Below are positions 5,960-12,180 of a stretch of 64,000 nucleotides of DNA, one piece after another. The stretch is from an uncultured beta proteobacterium. Lineage in GTDB: Bacteria; Pseudomonadota; Gammaproteobacteria; Burkholderiales; Burkholderiaceae_C. The notes under the pieces were generated by a model, which worked only from the letters and a program-made list of their open reading frames with translations, made no database searches and had not been told where the DNA came from. Both the position numbers and the translations under genes were made by a program. The stretch lies in contig CAIMSP010000153.1 in assembly GCA_903844215.1 (NCBI GenBank), positions 1-64,000 of the forward strand, read 5' to 3'. Position 1 is the first letter of the stretch. Each line of letters begins with the position of its first letter.

Positions 5960-6865
5960 ATGCTGACGTTCCAACAAATCATCCTGAAATTGCAGTCCTA
6001 CTGGGACGCCCAGGGCTGCGCGCTGCTGCAGCCCTATGACATGGAAGTCGGTGCCGGCACCTCGCACACCGCCACCTTCCTGCGCGCGCTCGGCCCCGAA
6101 CCCTGGAAGGCGGCCTATGTGCAGCCCAGCCGTCGCCCCAAGGACGGGCGCTACGGCGAAAACCCGAACCGCCTGCAGCACTACTACCAGTACCAGGTGG
6201 TGCTCAAGCCGGCGCCCTCGAACATCCTGGACCTGTATCTGGGCAGCCTGGAAGCGCTGGGCTTCGACCTGAAGAAGAACGACATCCGCTTTGTCGAGGA
6301 CGACTGGGAGAACCCCACACTGGGCGCCTGGGGCCTGGGCTGGGAGGTCTGGCTCAACGGCATGGAGGTGACGCAGTTCACCTACTTCCAGCAGGTCGGT
6401 GGCATCGACTGCCGCCCGGTCACGGGCGAAATCACCTACGGTCTGGAACGGCTGGCGATGTACCTGCAAGGCGTGGACAACGTCTACAACCTGCAGTGGA
6501 CCGACAGCATGAGCTACGGTGATGTCTATCTGCAAAACGAGCAGGAGCAGTCGGCCTACAACTTCGAGCACAGCGACGTGGACTTTTTGTTCACCGCCTT
6601 TGCCGCGCACGAAAAGCAGGCCAAGTATTTGATGGAGCAGCAGCTCGCGCTGCCGGCCTACGAGCAAGTCCTCAAGGCCGCCCACAGCTTCAACCTGCTG
6701 GACGCGCGTGGCGCCATTAGCGTGACCGAGCGCGCCGCCTACATGGGTCGCATCCGCAACATTTCGCGCAGCGTGGCGCAAAGCTATTACGACAGCCGCG
6801 AACGCCAGAGCTTCCCGCTGGCACCGCGTGAATGGGTGGCGCAGATGACGAAGAAGGCGGCGTGA
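5960..6865 (+). CDS. glyQ: Glycyl-tRNA synthetase alpha subunit
   Basis: A 301-residue class II catalytic subunit of the heterotetrameric bacterial GlyRS. The ATG at 5960 ([15 protein letters not shown]) matches the family start; upstream in-frame codons are ignored. The hallmark [20 protein letters not shown] and the glycine-site segment [12 protein letters not shown] are intact, as is the C-terminal tail ([12 protein letters not shown]). In most Proteobacteria glyS follows immediately. Here about 1.8 kb of accessory genes separates the two subunits, and nothing in this gene suggests loss of function. Confidence 0.97.
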
Positions 6866-6896
6866 TGAAACAACTCTTTTCCCATGGGAGAATGAA

Positions 6897-7991
6897 ATGA
6901 AGGGTGCGCTCCAGGACATCATCACTCGGCTAAAGTGTTTTCAATACAAAAACGAGGAGCACATCCGACTGGGCGTCGTCTGCAGAGTACTTGAAAAACT
7001 TGGTTGGGATATTTGGAATCCTCAAGAAGTAAACACGGAATTTCAGGCCATGCCACGGGAGGATGCCACGCGAGTCGATATTGCGCTATTTATGCCGCCA
7101 CAGCTTATTCGTCCAGCGGTTTTTGTTGAGATCAAAGCTCATGGGAGGCTGCTCCCCGCACTGGAAGCGGCTGAAATTCAGGTGCGCGATTACAACCGAA
7201 ATAACCAGGCTGATATTTCAGTATTGACCGATGGTCGGTACTGGCGGATGTATCTCTCTAGCGCATCGGGTGAGTTTTCGCAAAAGTGTTTTGAACAAAT
7301 TGACTTGCTTGAAGAGGATGCTGGTTTGGTCGATGCCGAATTGACTCTTGACGCGTTCTTGTCAAAGAAGGCCGTTCTGTCTGGCGCGGCAGTGGAAGAC
7401 GCGAAAAAATATTTGAAGCGAACCGACACCGAAAGAATCATGTACGACGTTTTACCTGTTGCACAGCGCGATGCCGATGAAGATCCCGTGACCAGCCTTG
7501 TCGAATGCTTTCTAAGTCGATGTAATGAACGCGGCGCTGACTGCACTCGGGAGCAAGCGGTTGCCTTCATTAGGACCGCGAAGGCGAGGGTCGTGAGTGC
7601 ACCTGCCCGTGGCACTGTGAAGAACGACCTTGCACTGCCTCTTCGAAGTGCAGGAACCAGACAACTTGTTCACCCCTTTGTGAAGGCTGAGAGTCGGTCT
7701 GTGCGCCGGTTGCAGTTGATCAACAGGCGTGGTGCGAACGCGAGTGGCGAGTTGCTTGAATCAGGGCGATTTGTTGTTTTTGCCGACTCTATTGCTGCGT
7801 CAACAACCGATAAATTTGCAGGTGGCTACCGAAATTTGCGGGCACTCCTTGAACAGGAACGAATCCTTGTACAGAGTAACGGCAATGGAGTGAATTTGTT
7901 TCAACTTTCGCGGAACTACGAATTCGGATCGGCATCGGCAGCCGCAAGTGTTTTTTGCGGTCGGCAGGCAAATGACGGTGAGTGGAAGTGA
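6897..7991 (+). CDS. Free-standing HsdR N-terminal-like nuclease-fold protein
   Basis: A 364-residue protein whose first ~170 residues resemble the N-terminal nuclease domain of type I restriction HsdR subunits (HSDR_N/DUF4268-like). The PD-(D/E)xK pattern is visible as RVDIALFMPP followed by VFVEIKAHG, with YWRMYLSS later in the fold. No helicase motifs and no HsdM or HsdS gene are present, so this is not a complete restriction system. The C-terminal half (about 190-364) has no motif I recognise. Good ribosome-binding site GGGAG at 6886-6890. Its codons are visibly AT-richer than the flanking glyQ and glyS, suggesting horizontal acquisition. It lies in a 1.8-kb pocket between glyQ and glyS with a toxin-antitoxin pair. 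Confidence 0.75.
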   Translation: MKGALQDIITRLKCFQYKNEEHIRLGVVCRVLEKLGWDIWNPQEVNTEFQAMPREDATRVDIALFMPPQLIRPAVFVEIKAHGRLLPALEAAEIQVRDYNRNNQADISVLTDGRYWRMYLSSASGEFSQKCFEQIDLLEEDAGLVDAELTLDAFLSKKAVLSGAAVEDAKKYLKRTDTERIMYDVLPVAQRDADEDPVTSLVECFLSRCNERGADCTREQAVAFIRTAKARVVSAPARGTVKNDLALPLRSAGTRQLVHPFVKAESRSVRRLQLINRRGANASGELLESGRFVVFADSIAASTTDKFAGGYRNLRALLEQERILVQSNGNGVNLFQLSRNYEFGSASAAASVFCGRQANDGEWK

Positions 7992-8049
7992 CGATAGATT
8001 CCCGCTTAGCTTTGCAACGGCCCGAGGAGTCGAAACCGCGAGTAATATT

Positions 8050-8071
8050 TTGTGACACAATTGCGTCACAA
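8050..8071. promoter_or_regulatory. 22-bp near-perfect palindrome, probable toxin-antitoxin operator
   Basis: The arms TTGTGACACAA and TTGCGTCACAA pair at 10 of 11 positions (mismatch 8057/8064), centred between 8060 and 8061. It ends 16 bases before the antitoxin start codon, just upstream of the ribosome-binding site TAGGAG (8075-8080). That is where ribbon-helix-helix antitoxins usually bind to autorepress their operon. Operator identity is inferred from position and symmetry. Confidence 0.6.
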
Positions 8072-8087
8072 GCATAGGAGCACTCTC

Positions 8088-8390
8088 ATGTCCACCACCA
8101 CCTTGCGTCTTGATTCACCGCTGCGCCAGCGCATTCTCGATTTGGCTCAGGCCACGGGTCAGTCTGCGCACAGCTTCATGGTGGATGCGCTGACGCAAAA
8201 AACCGAAGAGGCTGAATGGACTTTGGCGCTGCAACGCGAAGCGGCGCAGCGCGATGCGGACATGCAGGCGACGCAGCTGGGGCTGGATTGGCACGACGTG
8301 AGGGCTTGGGCCCTGGCGCGTGCCGCCAAGAAGCCCGCCCGAGCGCCTGTGCGCAAAAGCCTGGAGCGGATCAAGGCGGCGAGGGCATGA
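8088..8390 (+). CDS. Ribbon-helix-helix antitoxin of a ParE/RelE-type module
   Basis: A 100-residue protein starting at ATG 8088 with a well-placed TAGGAG site. Residues ~1-45 (STTTLRLDSPLRQRILDLAQ, then a second helix around HSFMVDALTQK) fit a ribbon-helix-helix DNA-binding domain. The charged, alanine-rich C-terminal half (to SLERIKAARA) would be the toxin-wrapping tail. The stop codon overlaps the toxin start (ATGA at 8387-8390), the usual antitoxin-first arrangement. A symmetrical operator-like sequence lies immediately upstream. Confidence 0.8.
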   Translation: MSTTTLRLDSPLRQRILDLAQATGQSAHSFMVDALTQKTEEAEWTLALQREAAQRDADMQATQLGLDWHDVRAWALARAAKKPARAPVRKSLERIKAARA

Positions 8391-8677
8391 CGCACATCAT
8401 CTTGTCGGTACAGGTGAAGGCCGACTTTGAGCGTATTTTTGATTTTCTATTCGAGTACGCAGCGGATACCAGCGTGGCGCGCATCCAGGAGATCGTGGCC
8501 GCGATCGACATTTTGCAGACCAGCCCGAAAATGGGGCGACCGGTGGCGCTGGGTCAGCGCGAACTGGTGATTTCCAAGGGCGGCGGCTACCTGGCCTTGT
8601 ACCGTTACGACCCGATCAATGACATCGCCTATGTGCTGAGCGTGAAAAGCCAGCGTGAGCAAGACTACAAAAAATGA
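8387..8677 (+). CDS. ParE/RelE-superfamily toxin
   Basis: A 96-residue toxin of the RelE/ParE superfamily (plasmid-stabilisation type). Visible family features are the two N-terminal helices (VKADFERIFDFLFEYAAD), the central PKMGRPVALGQRELVISKGG and the strand pair YLALYRYDPINDIAYVLSVK ending in SQREQDY. Members inhibit DNA gyrase (ParE) or cleave ribosome-bound mRNA (RelE), and the sequence does not decide which. It starts within the antitoxin stop (ATGA), and its own stop overlaps the glyS start (ATGA at 8674-8677). The toxin is therefore translationally joined to an essential aminoacyl-tRNA synthetase subunit. Confidence 0.82.
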   Translation: MTHIILSVQVKADFERIFDFLFEYAADTSVARIQEIVAAIDILQTSPKMGRPVALGQRELVISKGGGYLALYRYDPINDIAYVLSVKSQREQDYKK

Positions 8678-10812
8678 GCACACAAAATTTACTCGTCGAA
8701 CTGTTCGTTGAAGAACTCCCGCCCAAGGCGCTGAAAACCTTGGGCGAGGCTTTCGCCAACGGCGTTTTTAATGGACTTGAAAAACACCATCTCGTGTTGC
8801 GCGCTGAAGTGGTCAAGCTCCAGTCATTTGCCAGCCCGCGCCGACTCGCGGTTTGGATTCCTGCCGTTCTTGGCGTTGCCGTTAGCCGCGCGTCATCGCA
8901 AAAGCTCATGCCAACCAGCGTCGGGCTGGACGCGCAGGGCAATGCCACGCCGGCCTTGTTGAAAAAGCTCCAGGCGCTGGGCGCGGATGCGTCGGCGGTC
9001 GCCGGCCTGAAGCGCGCGCCCGACGGCAAAGCCGAAGCGCTGTTTTTTGAGAGCATGGTCAAGGGGGCGACGCTGGCCCAGGGGCTGCAAGCGGCGCTGA
9101 CCGAGGCCATCGCCAAACTGCCGATCCCGAAGGTGATGAGCTACCAGTTGGAGAGTGGTTGCGAGTTGCCGGGCTGGAGCAGCGTGAGTTTTGTGCGCCC
9201 CGCCCACGGCCTGGTGGCGCTGCATGGCAGTGACGTCGTGCCGGTGGAGGCGCTGGGCCTGAAGGCCGGCCGTCACACCCAGGGCCACCGCTTTGAAGCG
9301 CGCATCTCGCCGGTGCTGCTGGCCAACGCCGACAGCTACGCCGCCACGCTGGAAGTGGACGGCGCCGTGATCGCGTCGTTCGCCAAGCGCAGGGATGAGA
9401 TTGCCCGGCAACTGGCGCAGGCCGCTGCCAAGCTCGGTGGCGGCTGCAAACCCATCGAGGACGACGCCCTGCTGGACGAGGTGACGGGCCTGGTGGAGCG
9501 GCCCAACGTGCTGCTGTGCCAGTTCGAGCCGCAGTTTCTCGACGTGCCGCAGGAATGCCTGATCCTGACCATGAAGGCGAACCAGAAATACTTCCCGCTG
9601 CTCGACGCCACGGGCAAGCTGACGAACCAATTCCTGGTGGTGAGCAACATCAGCCCGGACGATGCCTCGCAGGTGATCGGCGGCAACGAGCGCGTCGTGC
9701 GCCCGCGCTTGGCCGACGCCAAGTTCTTCTTCGACCAGGACCGCAAGAAGACGCTGGCCTCGCGCGTGGCGGCGCTGGACAAGGTGGTTTATCACAACAA
9801 GCTGGGCAGTCAGGGCGAGAGATCGGCACGCGTGCGCGCCATCGCCCAGGCCATCGGACAACAACTCGGCGGTGCCGCGCTGGCGGCCCAGGCCGACCAG
9901 GCCGCGCTGCTGGCCAAGACCGATCTGCTCACCGACATGGTGGGCGAGTTCCCCGAGTTGCAGGGCATCATGGGCGGCTACTACGCGCGCCACGATGGCC
10001 TGAGCGAAGCCATCGCCTGCGCGATTGAAGACCACTACAAGCCGCGCTTTGCCGGTGACGCCTTGCCGCGCCATCAGGTCGGCATCGTGGTGGCGCTGGC
10101 CGACAAACTCGAAACCCTGGTGGGCATGTTCGGCATCGGCAATCTGCCCACCGGCGACAAGGACCCGTTTGCGCTGCGCCGTCATGCGCTGGGCGTGATT
10201 CGCATGCTGAGCGAAGCCGATCTGGCGCTGGACCTGGGTGCGCTGTTGCGCGCCGCCTACGCGGCGTTCGGTGACAAGCTGCCCGCCGACGCCACGACTG
10301 CGCTGGAGGCACTGCAGCAGTTCATCTACGACCGTCTCGCCGGTTCCCTGCGCGAGCAGGGCTACAGTGCGCGGGAAGTGGACGCCGTGCTGGCCCTGAA
10401 GCCGCAGCGCCTGGGCGACGTGCCCAAGCGCCTGGCAGCGGTGCGCGCCTTCGCCGCGCTGCCCGAAGCGCCGGCCCTGGCGGCGGCGAACAAGCGCATC
10501 GGCAACATCCTGAAAAAAGCCCCGCCGGTGGACCCGCATGTGAGCGAGGTGCTGCTGCAGGAAGCGGCAGAAATGGCGCTGTACGGCGCCATGAAATCGG
10601 CGCTGCCACAGGCCGACGCGCTGTTCGAGGCCGGCGATTACACGGCCTCGCTGCAATCCCTGGCGGCACTGCGCGCACCGGTGGACGCCTTCTTCGACGG
10701 CGTCATGGTCAACGCCGAACAACTCGATTTGCGCCTGAACCGTCAAGGCCTGTTGCAGACCTTGCACAACGCCATGAACCGGGTCGCGGACCTGTCCAAG
10801 CTGGCGGCATGA
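8674..10812 (+). CDS. glyS: Glycyl-tRNA synthetase beta subunit
   Basis: The 712-residue tRNA-binding beta subunit of heterotetrameric GlyRS. The N-terminus (STQNLLVELFVEELPPKALK) and the internal MKANQKYFPLLD and NERVVRPRLADAKFFFDQDRKK blocks are family hallmarks, and the length is normal. The start overlaps the toxin stop codon (ATGA), so it is read as the last gene of antitoxin-toxin-glyS, an unusual position. Its partner glyQ ends 1.8 kb upstream. Whether glyS also has its own promoter inside the toxin-antitoxin genes cannot be read here. Confidence 0.97.
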   Translation: MSTQNLLVELFVEELPPKALKTLGEAFANGVFNGLEKHHLVLRAEVVKLQSFASPRRLAVWIPAVLGVAVSRASSQKLMPTSVGLDAQGNATPALLKKLQALGADASAVAGLKRAPDGKAEALFFESMVKGATLAQGLQAALTEAIAKLPIPKVMSYQLESGCELPGWSSVSFVRPAHGLVALHGSDVVPVEALGLKAGRHTQGHRFEARISPVLLANADSYAATLEVDGAVIASFAKRRDEIARQLAQAAAKLGGGCKPIEDDALLDEVTGLVERPNVLLCQFEPQFLDVPQECLILTMKANQKYFPLLDATGKLTNQFLVVSNISPDDASQVIGGNERVVRPRLADAKFFFDQDRKKTLASRVAALDKVVYHNKLGSQGERSARVRAIAQAIGQQLGGAALAAQADQAALLAKTDLLTDMVGEFPELQGIMGGYYARHDGLSEAIACAIEDHYKPRFAGDALPRHQVGIVVALADKLETLVGMFGIGNLPTGDKDPFALRRHALGVIRMLSEADLALDLGALLRAAYAAFGDKLPADATTALEALQQFIYDRLAGSLREQGYSAREVDAVLALKPQRLGDVPKRLAAVRAFAALPEAPALAAANKRIGNILKKAPPVDPHVSEVLLQEAAEMALYGAMKSALPQADALFEAGDYTASLQSLAALRAPVDAFFDGVMVNAEQLDLRLNRQGLLQTLHNAMNRVADLSKLAA

Positions 10813-10858: not shown

Positions 10859-11275
10859 ATGAATCCGGCTCTCGATCAGGAACTTGTTGACGCCGCAATC
10901 GCCCTGGCACTGCGGAGATACCCCGTGGGCGAGGCCATCGTTGCCGCCCTGCGCACCAATTCAGGAAAAATTCTCACGAGTGTGTGTGCGCAGGCGAGGG
11001 TCGATTCGGCAAACCTTTGCGCGGAAACAGGGTCTATCTGTGAAGCCCACAAAATCGACGAATCGGTCGTCGCCAGCGCCTGTCTTTATCGAGAGTCTGA
11101 ACTGTTTCCATTTCGTGTTCTTCCCGCTTGCGGGATTTGTCAGGAACGTTTGGCCTACTGGGGTTTGAATGTTCAGATTGCGGTACCCTTGAATGAAGTC
11201 GGTAACGAGAAAATATGGCAAGCCAAAACGTTACGGCAGCTTCGCCCCTTCTATTGGGGTGAGGCGGTCGACTAG
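10859..11275 (+). CDS. Cytidine-deaminase-like zinc protein
   Basis: A 138-residue protein of the cytidine deaminase fold. The two zinc-site motifs are present in the order and spacing of small CDA/blasticidin-deaminase proteins: CAETGSICEAHK (Cys-Ala-Glu, residues about 56-58) and PACGICQERL (Cys-x-x-Cys, about 104-107). The substrate cannot be read; free cytidine, a modified nucleoside or a nucleoside antibiotic are all possible. The first residues (MNPALDQELVDAAIALALRR) form the usual leading helix. It lies after glyS in a small group of accessory genes before gmhB. Confidence 0.7.
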   Translation: MNPALDQELVDAAIALALRRYPVGEAIVAALRTNSGKILTSVCAQARVDSANLCAETGSICEAHKIDESVVASACLYRESELFPFRVLPACGICQERLAYWGLNVQIAVPLNEVGNEKIWQAKTLRQLRPFYWGEAVD

Positions 11276-11325
11276 CCCGAAGCACCGAATGCACCGAATC
11301 CCAATCACCGCGCAATTCAAACAAC

Positions 11326-11640
11326 ATGCCCACGCAACTGGATATTGACCGCTTCACCCTGGCGTTTCATCGCCTGGCGGTACCGCGTCTGCAAAGTGAG
11401 CCGGGACTGGTGCAACGTGCTTTGCAGACGCTGGACCGGTGGCGCGAGCAGCGTGGCCTGGATGCGCGCGATGTCTACGGACAGGAATGGCGGGAACTTT
11501 TGAGCGGTGACCTCGGGCGACTGGAGCAAGCAGTTTGCGCAGAAGATGCGCACGCTGCAACTCTGCGCGGCACCTCTCCTTTAGGTTTTGTGTTGTCACC
11601 GCAAGAGCGCACCGCCGCGCGCCGGGCCGCAGGCTTGTGA
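11326..11640 (+). CDS. Small hypothetical protein, likely partner of the DUF6036 gene
   Basis: A 104-residue protein I do not recognise. It is mostly helical by composition, rich in Arg, Leu and Glu, with a tryptophan pair (DRWREQRGL and YGQEWRELL). It ends four bases before the DUF6036 nucleotidyltransferase starts, so the two form a compact two-gene unit of the kind seen in antitoxin/toxin or substrate/modifier pairs. No DNA-binding motif is clear. A function as antitoxin is inference from position only. Confidence 0.6.
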   Translation: MPTQLDIDRFTLAFHRLAVPRLQSEPGLVQRALQTLDRWREQRGLDARDVYGQEWRELLSGDLGRLEQAVCAEDAHAATLRGTSPLGFVLSPQERTAARRAAGL

Positions 11641-11643
11641 AGC

Positions 11644-12180
11644 ATGCAACGCTCTGAAGTCGAACACGTGCTACGCGCCGCCGCAGCGATCTCGCAGGAG
11701 AAGTCGTTCGTTTTGGTCGGCAGCCAGGCGGTGTTGCTGCTGCTCGAGAAACCACCTGCGGCCTTGCTGCTGTCGGCCGAGTTGGATCTTTATCCCGCGC
11801 TGCACCCGGAAAAATCTGACCTGATTGATGGTGCGATTGGCGCCTTGTCAACGTTCCATGACACCTTCGGTTACCACGCTGACGGAGTCGGACCCGAAAC
11901 TGCGGTCATGCCGCCAGACTGGATGCGGCGTGCGCACCTGACCTACTTGGGTGAAGTGACGGCGATCTGTCCGGAGTTGCACGATCTCGCAGTATCCAAG
12001 TGCGTCGCCGGCAGGGACAAGGATGCGGACTTTGTGCGGGTGCTGATTCAGGCGGGTCTGTTGGACTTCAATACATTGAAAGAGCGTATCGGAATGCTTG
12101 ACAAAGAATCTTGTTCTGTACAACAAACCCTCGACTGGGCTGAACGACGCAGGAATGAAGCAATGGAGTTCAAACCATGA
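11644..12180 (+). CDS. DUF6036-type nucleotidyltransferase-fold protein
   Basis: A 178-residue protein resembling the DUF6036/MNT-like nucleotidyltransferases often found in toxin-antitoxin or defence contexts. The glycine-serine loop FVLVGSQAVLLLLE (about 20-33) and the following acidic strand SAELDLYP (about 40-47) correspond to the GS...(D/E)xD metal site. A helix with LHDLAVSKCVAGRDKDADFV (about 113-132) is typical of this group. It follows a 104-residue partner by four bases and overlaps gmhB by ATGA at its end. The target is unknown. Confidence 0.65.
   Translation: MQRSEVEHVLRAAAAISQEKSFVLVGSQAVLLLLEKPPAALLLSAELDLYPALHPEKSDLIDGAIGALSTFHDTFGYHADGVGPETAVMPPDWMRRAHLTYLGEVTAICPELHDLAVSKCVAGRDKDADFVRVLIQAGLLDFNTLKERIGMLDKESCSVQQTLDWAERRRNEAMEFKP

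Follow-up and report, generated by a model that had tools for sequence, protein, structure and literature searches.

The window analysed here, a stretch of 64,000 nt from one genome (G000), encodes both genes of glycyl-tRNA synthetase, the essential two-subunit enzyme (glyQ, glyS) that charges tRNA with glycine, and profile matches indicate that both genes are intact (Table 1). Between them lie an HsdR_N-like gene, an operator-like site, and a small antitoxin gene directly 5′ of a small toxin gene, which is the gene order of a type II toxin–antitoxin (TA) system. A first-pass annotation of this DNA had placed a TA pair between glyQ and glyS, and reading frames and family matches bear this out; the successive ATGA overlaps that it described, joining antitoxin to toxin and toxin to glyS, can be read directly in the letters. 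It had also called glyS translationally fused to the pair. The overlap stands but the fusion does not, as the genes only overlap; from the position of their stop and start codons, toxin and glyS are probably translationally coupled.

Directly 3′ of glyS, positions 10859-12180 form a second accessory-looking stretch of lower GC (0.55-0.62), holding a cytidine-deaminase-like ORF (16.5 bits, below the cut-off of 25), a 104 aa ORF that matches no Pfam family and a gene for a DUF6036 nucleotidyltransferase (36 bits, cut-off 23.6). In the congener G004 (L080), a GmhB-like ORF, labelled by eye, begins 5 nt past the glyS match.

Table 1. Features between and including glyQ and glyS, in window coordinates
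Feature	Position	Strand	Basis
glyQ, glycyl-tRNA synthetase alpha subunit	5960..6865	+	TIGR00388 514.8 bits, PF02091 495.7 bits
HsdR_N-like protein, 364 aa, C-terminal DUF4357 / PDC-S14-like region	6897..7991	+	labels below cut-off
operator-like site, 22 nt: adjacent 11-nt palindromes TTGTGACACAA and TTGCGTCACAA	8050..8071	+	
antitoxin, 100 aa, probably ribbon-helix-helix (CopG/ParD-like)	8088..8390	+	homologue and profile matches
ATGA overlap, antitoxin stop/toxin start	8387..8390	+	seen directly in sequence
toxin, RelE/ParE superfamily, 96 aa	8387..8677	+	PF05016 35.1 bits, cut-off 23
ATGA overlap, toxin stop/glyS start	8674..8677	+	seen directly; kept in G003 and G001
glyS, glycyl-tRNA synthetase beta subunit	8674..10812	+	TIGR00211 760.2 bits

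The toxin–antitoxin pair and its operator-like site

The toxin scores above the cut-off of the ParE_toxin family (PF05016; Table 1), which upholds its earlier description as a ParE-RelE toxin. The same family was matched by 18/18 proteins aligned with it, and the toxin profile found chain 7etr_C among the PDB chains at 6.3e-18; against RelE_StbE it reached 17.7 bits, under the cut-off of 27.9. Toxins of the ParE type typically act through gyrase inhibition. The antitoxin is less straightforward: taken alone, the window protein has no significant Pfam match, and its previous label as a ribbon-helix-helix (RHH) antitoxin is made probable by relatives, in that 14 of the 20 proteins aligned with the antitoxin match RHH_1 at E 0.01 or better and its profile matches solved CopG-family antitoxins (chains 7etr_A, 1.5e-11, and 6iya_A, 1.2e-7). 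Its score against a RelB-like model was 21.7 bits (cut-off 50).

Two congeners, G003 and G001, carry the pair at the same place. The toxin/glyS overlap is common to all three species, and the antitoxin/toxin overlap is lost in G003, in which the two genes are 2 nt apart. By Nei-Gojobori counts for the three pairs among these genomes, dN/dS is 0.13-0.20 for the toxin, 0.14-0.15 for the antitoxin and 0.12-0.21 for glyS, and the dS of the TA genes (0.41-1.05) spans that of glyS (0.54-0.74), which together point to vertical descent with the locus and to purifying selection on both proteins. A decayed toxin, named beforehand as a finding that would undo the first-pass reading, was looked for and can be ruled out, the frame being open in three species at the dN/dS given.

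Type II TA operons are typically autorepressed at a palindromic operator, and an operator-like element precedes the antitoxin gene here: two palindromic boxes, TTGTGACACAA and TTGCGTCACAA, with 16 nt between their 3′ end and the antitoxin start. G000, G003 and G001 share the first box unchanged, and for each of them 1/300 mononucleotide shuffles of the 80 nt upstream was equally palindromic. The antitoxin may bind at 8050-8071. A promoter scan of 6700-8900 gave no sigma-70-like match at the operator, which counts against the explanation favoured below. Its sole match lies inside the toxin gene, where a strong separate glyS promoter had been proposed as a possible objection; with 9/12 matches, and 0.9 such matches expected in shuffles, it is at chance level and no good candidate for one.

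Gain and loss of inserts within the source genus

Five genomes of the source genus were compared, G000 and its congeners G001, G002, G003 and G004. The spacing of glyQ and glyS in these close relatives, a check suggested at the outset, gave a divided answer: the gap is 639 nt in G003 and 643 nt in G001, the two of four congeners with the TA, whereas G002 and G004 lack it at the junction and have 13 and 14 nt from glyQ stop to glyS start. As glyS places G004 nearest to G003 (dS 0.44), the absence of the TA from G004, and probably from G002 too, is best read as loss. The spacer of G002 (L004) is TGAGCAAGACAAGACC, and its GAGCAAGAC matches the 3′ end of the toxin gene and occurs in 0/69 named spacers, so it is possibly a deletion scar; the spacer of G004 (L005) resembles the ordinary spacers of other genera.

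These clean short junctions do not support the earlier suggestion that the insertion is addictive, if this is taken to mean irreversible. The module could still be anchored by its position, in that deletions of the TA would damage the glyS start or leave free toxin, and the existence of three species with both proteins intact, together with the stop-start overlap with glyS, fits this. The same two congeners, and a pattern of divergence best read as loss, speak against it, and we regard such anchoring as unlikely.

The HsdR_N-like gene has only glyQ and the antitoxin gene as direct neighbours, and it differs from the flanking genes in composition (GC 0.50-0.53 vs about 0.62-0.69). All of its family labels fall below the cut-off (HSDR_N_2, 24.2 bits against 25; HSDR_N, 23.7 against 25.1; DUF4357, 24.1 against 38.4) and no helicase family was matched, so that the protein is not assigned to HsdR of type I restriction systems. 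PADLOC matched it to PDC-S14 at 5.3e-14 over residues 264-359 only (model positions 201-293 of 320), which is a partial match for a protein of 364 aa and falls short of membership by the whole model; on this C-terminal likeness, it may be a phage-defence gene. Relatives of the protein were sought in phage and plasmid collections with no match, and in 150 family genomes with six weak partial matches besides itself. At the junction, the gene is present in G000 only and absent in G001, G002, G003 and G004. A joint insertion of the HsdR_N-like gene and the TA is ruled out, since G003 and G001 carry the TA without it; this makes the HsdR_N-like gene a later, second insert, and the single accessory pocket of the first-pass annotation resolves into two layers.

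Toxin–antitoxin modules at glyQ/glyS across the family

From a family sample of 299 genomes, 183 glyQ/glyS pairs in 182 genomes were surveyed (G134 was counted twice for its two glyQ/glyS copies). For 112 pairs the two genes were placed on the same contig and strand by the matches listed; another 74 junctions were retrieved, 71 of which gave a gap, G155 was dropped for a nonsensical gap and G293 was read separately. G113, G103, G207 (junction unreadable) and G071 were left out. The matches behind the census are the best 150 or so per listing, given best first, so that it favours near relatives. Among the matches listed, the gap is at least 150 nt in 22/183 junctions, and a TA lies in 14 of these 22, that is, at 14/183 junctions in nine genera (by genus labels). 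The ParE type is found at the junction in G000, G003 and G001, i.e., the source genus, and the VapBC type in eight other genera (G031, G046, G019, G027, G138, G224, G293, G089, G264, G013 and G009); VapB and VapC were assigned partly by Pfam and for the rest by alignment or by eye, and the VapB of G089 is just under the MazE cut-off (23.6 vs 24.7). Because these unrelated TA pairs occupy the same spot in different genera, the glyQ/glyS junction appears to have served repeatedly as a landing site, and not by a single accident.

The other eight of the 22 long gaps hold no TA. They contain a type IIG-like restriction-modification gene (G042), YdjM (G068), a YdjM-like gene by eye (G082), ABM (G209), HATPase/DUF4325 (G234) or no clear gene (G295, G180); the eighth, G039, has a 78 aa ORF that is antitoxin-like by eye and without Pfam match, and was left out of the TA count. 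In G042, the insert between glyQ and glyS (L075:162-4163) codes for a type IIG-like restriction-modification protein of 1334 aa (Eco57I, 81.4 bits). An ABM (antibiotic biosynthesis monooxygenase) gene recurs at glyQ/glyS in L126, L139, L097, L064, L072 and L073, preceding a VapBC pair in L072 and L073 (by Pfam; L073 by eye), and a gene for a YdjM-type membrane protein recurs there in L065, L142, L107 and L216 (by Pfam; L216 by eye).

Two other gene pairs served as controls in 80 family genomes, which were chosen to include the 16 with long gaps among the 112 pairs. The pheS/pheT junction was readable in 78/80 and rpsB/tsf in 79/80. A TA was found in 0/78 pheS/pheT junctions, where three of the four gaps of at least 150 nt were read and G067 (229 nt) was left out; the others are 680 nt twice (one genus), with an ORF matching no Pfam family over the cut-off, and 245 nt, without a TA. 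The rpsB/tsf junctions likewise gave 0/79, judged by the distance between matches, of which the widest, 330 nt, is too short for a TA pair. Fisher's exact test, with relatedness ignored, gave p 1.5e-4 for 14/183 vs 0/157 and, again ignoring relatedness, p 0.013 against pheS/pheT alone. That the controls are two gene pairs only was counted against the favoured explanation. So was a second survey, in which the 80 named loci listed as closest in glyS had a TA at glyQ/glyS in 0/80; seven of these 80 have gaps of at least 150 nt, with ABM in three, YdjM in two, DUF6678 in one and no gene in one (this set overlaps the family sample, L080 being G004).

The junction may thus be simply permissive, as the ABM, YdjM, DUF6678 and restriction-modification inserts suggest: free spacing would tolerate any small gene, and TAs would be frequent there as common mobile genes with no functional link to glyS. 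The eight long family gaps with varied other contents or no clear gene, and the seven long named gaps with no TA among them, agree with this. It explains less readily that 14 of the 22 long gaps contain a TA, that two other tight essential pairs show none, that the toxin is under purifying selection and that its stop-start overlap with glyS is kept; we hold this explanation to be possible, though somewhat doubtful.

A VapC profile, built from eight gap VapCs and applied at E 1e-15, found 27 places in 26/299 family genomes, and 14 of these adjoin glyQ or glyS. Since the profile rows are themselves gap VapCs, those eight and the near copy in G138 match by construction, and the independent yield is five of the other 18 places (G013, G009, G207, G086 and G154). 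G207, G086 and G154 add three further genera; in G086, VapC adjoins glyS alone, glyQ being off that locus, and the case was counted on VapC. In 310 genomes from the order, 0/26 VapC hits lay near glyQ or glyS, and no VapC at E 1e-15 was found in the four source-genus genomes searched (G000, G001, G003 and G004). With G207, G086 and G154 added to the 14 census junctions, there are 17 TA carriers, in nine of which the toxin overlaps glyS by ATGA (scored by script in G000, G003, G001, G046, G031, G086 and G013, and from the printed letters in G027 and G154); the remaining eight toxins stop 6-22 nt before glyS.

ParE and VapBC are unrelated, so there were certainly at least two origins at the junction. 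A tree of the 27 VapC proteins requires four changes of the label 'beside glyQ/glyS' to separate the 14 gap VapCs from the 13 others, and a single clade of the 14 is not rejected (AU p 0.309); the VapBC modules are possibly one old insertion followed by many losses.

Known relatives and persistence of the module

The closest parallel in the literature is ParESO-CopASO, on prophage CP4So of Shewanella oneidensis (PMC8706911), which likewise has an RHH antitoxin gene 5′ of a gene for a ParE-fold toxin; chains A and C of 7etr, matched by the antitoxin and toxin profiles here, correspond to that complex. According to that paper, CopASO binds its own promoter at two inverted repeats, and the operator-like site resembles this arrangement in its pair of short inverted repeats, spaced by about one turn of DNA, but the letters differ (GTANTAC N3 GTANTAC there, a TTGTGNCACAA-type box twice here). 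Whereas ParESO-CopASO, as described, sits on a prophage, the module here, known from its sequence, is embedded in the operon of an essential aminoacyl-tRNA synthetase and overlaps glyS.

Pairs of the same ParE/CopG kind elsewhere share the toxin family at no more than 55% identity in the family outside the source genus and no more than 51.5% on plasmids. Among the 30 ParE loci read, only those of the three source-genus genomes lie beside glyQ or glyS, and 0/27 outside the genus do so; in place of the operator boxes found here, a TAGCAC-N-GTGCTA repeat is present within the upstream 80 nt in 11/17 of the homologous ParE pairs elsewhere in the family. The VapBC modules of the other genera (MazE/AbrB-type antitoxin, PIN toxin) share the junction, and in 6/14 (G046, G027, G031, G086, G013 and G154) also the ATGA overlap with glyS, but their toxin and antitoxin families are unrelated to those of the module in the window. 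They have a palindrome of their own, GTAGAWAC-N-TCTAC, in 9/14 loci, before vapB where this was read; it was not matched in the other 5/14, which counts against the favoured explanation. Searches of open-access literature gave no report of TA modules at glyQ/glyS; in three papers that name glyQ or glyS alongside TA systems (PMC5175181, PMC8522696 and PMC7470980), the passages concerned treat glyS as the target in an assay or as a gene that was cloned.

One way to connect these modules to the enzyme is through regulation. If the antitoxin fell, the TA operon would be derepressed and the beta subunit of the synthetase (GlyRS) would rise, which would tie glycyl-tRNA supply to the toxin switch. 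The toxin/glyS overlap, the upstream operator-like site, the lack of a good separate glyS promoter and the recurrence with unrelated TA types all agree with such a device. Set against this, the module is absent from two congeners, and the toxins belong to different classes, ParE fold here and PIN domain elsewhere, so that no shared target points to tRNA-Gly; we consider the device improbable. A related proposal, that the junction is a true docking site where unrelated TAs are repeatedly captured and kept because their autorepressed promoter joins the control of GlyRS beta, linking TA state to glycyl-tRNA charging, seems to us slightly less doubtful, and still quite unlikely.

We favour, with moderate confidence, the explanation that self-promoting TA cassettes are tolerated within the glyQS operon and have become coupled to it. 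A type II module of the CopA-ParE kind would have entered the glyQ/glyS junction before the sampled species of the genus split, and would then have been passed on at this site, with losses in some lineages. It would have brought its own autorepressed promoter, the RHH antitoxin binding the two palindromic boxes. Transcripts of glyS could thus arise at the TA promoter as well as by read-through from glyQ, and translation of glyS would begin at the toxin stop codon (ATGA). As such a cassette promotes itself and hands translation on, the essential downstream gene would not be starved, and this sparing of glyS may be why TA modules, ParE here and VapBC elsewhere, are found and persist in many genera. 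The HsdR_N-like gene would have arrived later, on the 5′ side of the operator, and the TA promoter that follows it may be what allows it to be tolerated.

The TA families concerned are each known, and the value of the locus lies in unrelated modules meeting at one junction of an essential tRNA-synthetase operon. This amounts to a natural experiment on the persistence of chromosomal TAs, in which different genera, and congeners free of the module, can be compared with regard to position, self-promotion and coupling to an essential gene; about half of the TA modules at the junction end in a stop-start overlap with glyS.
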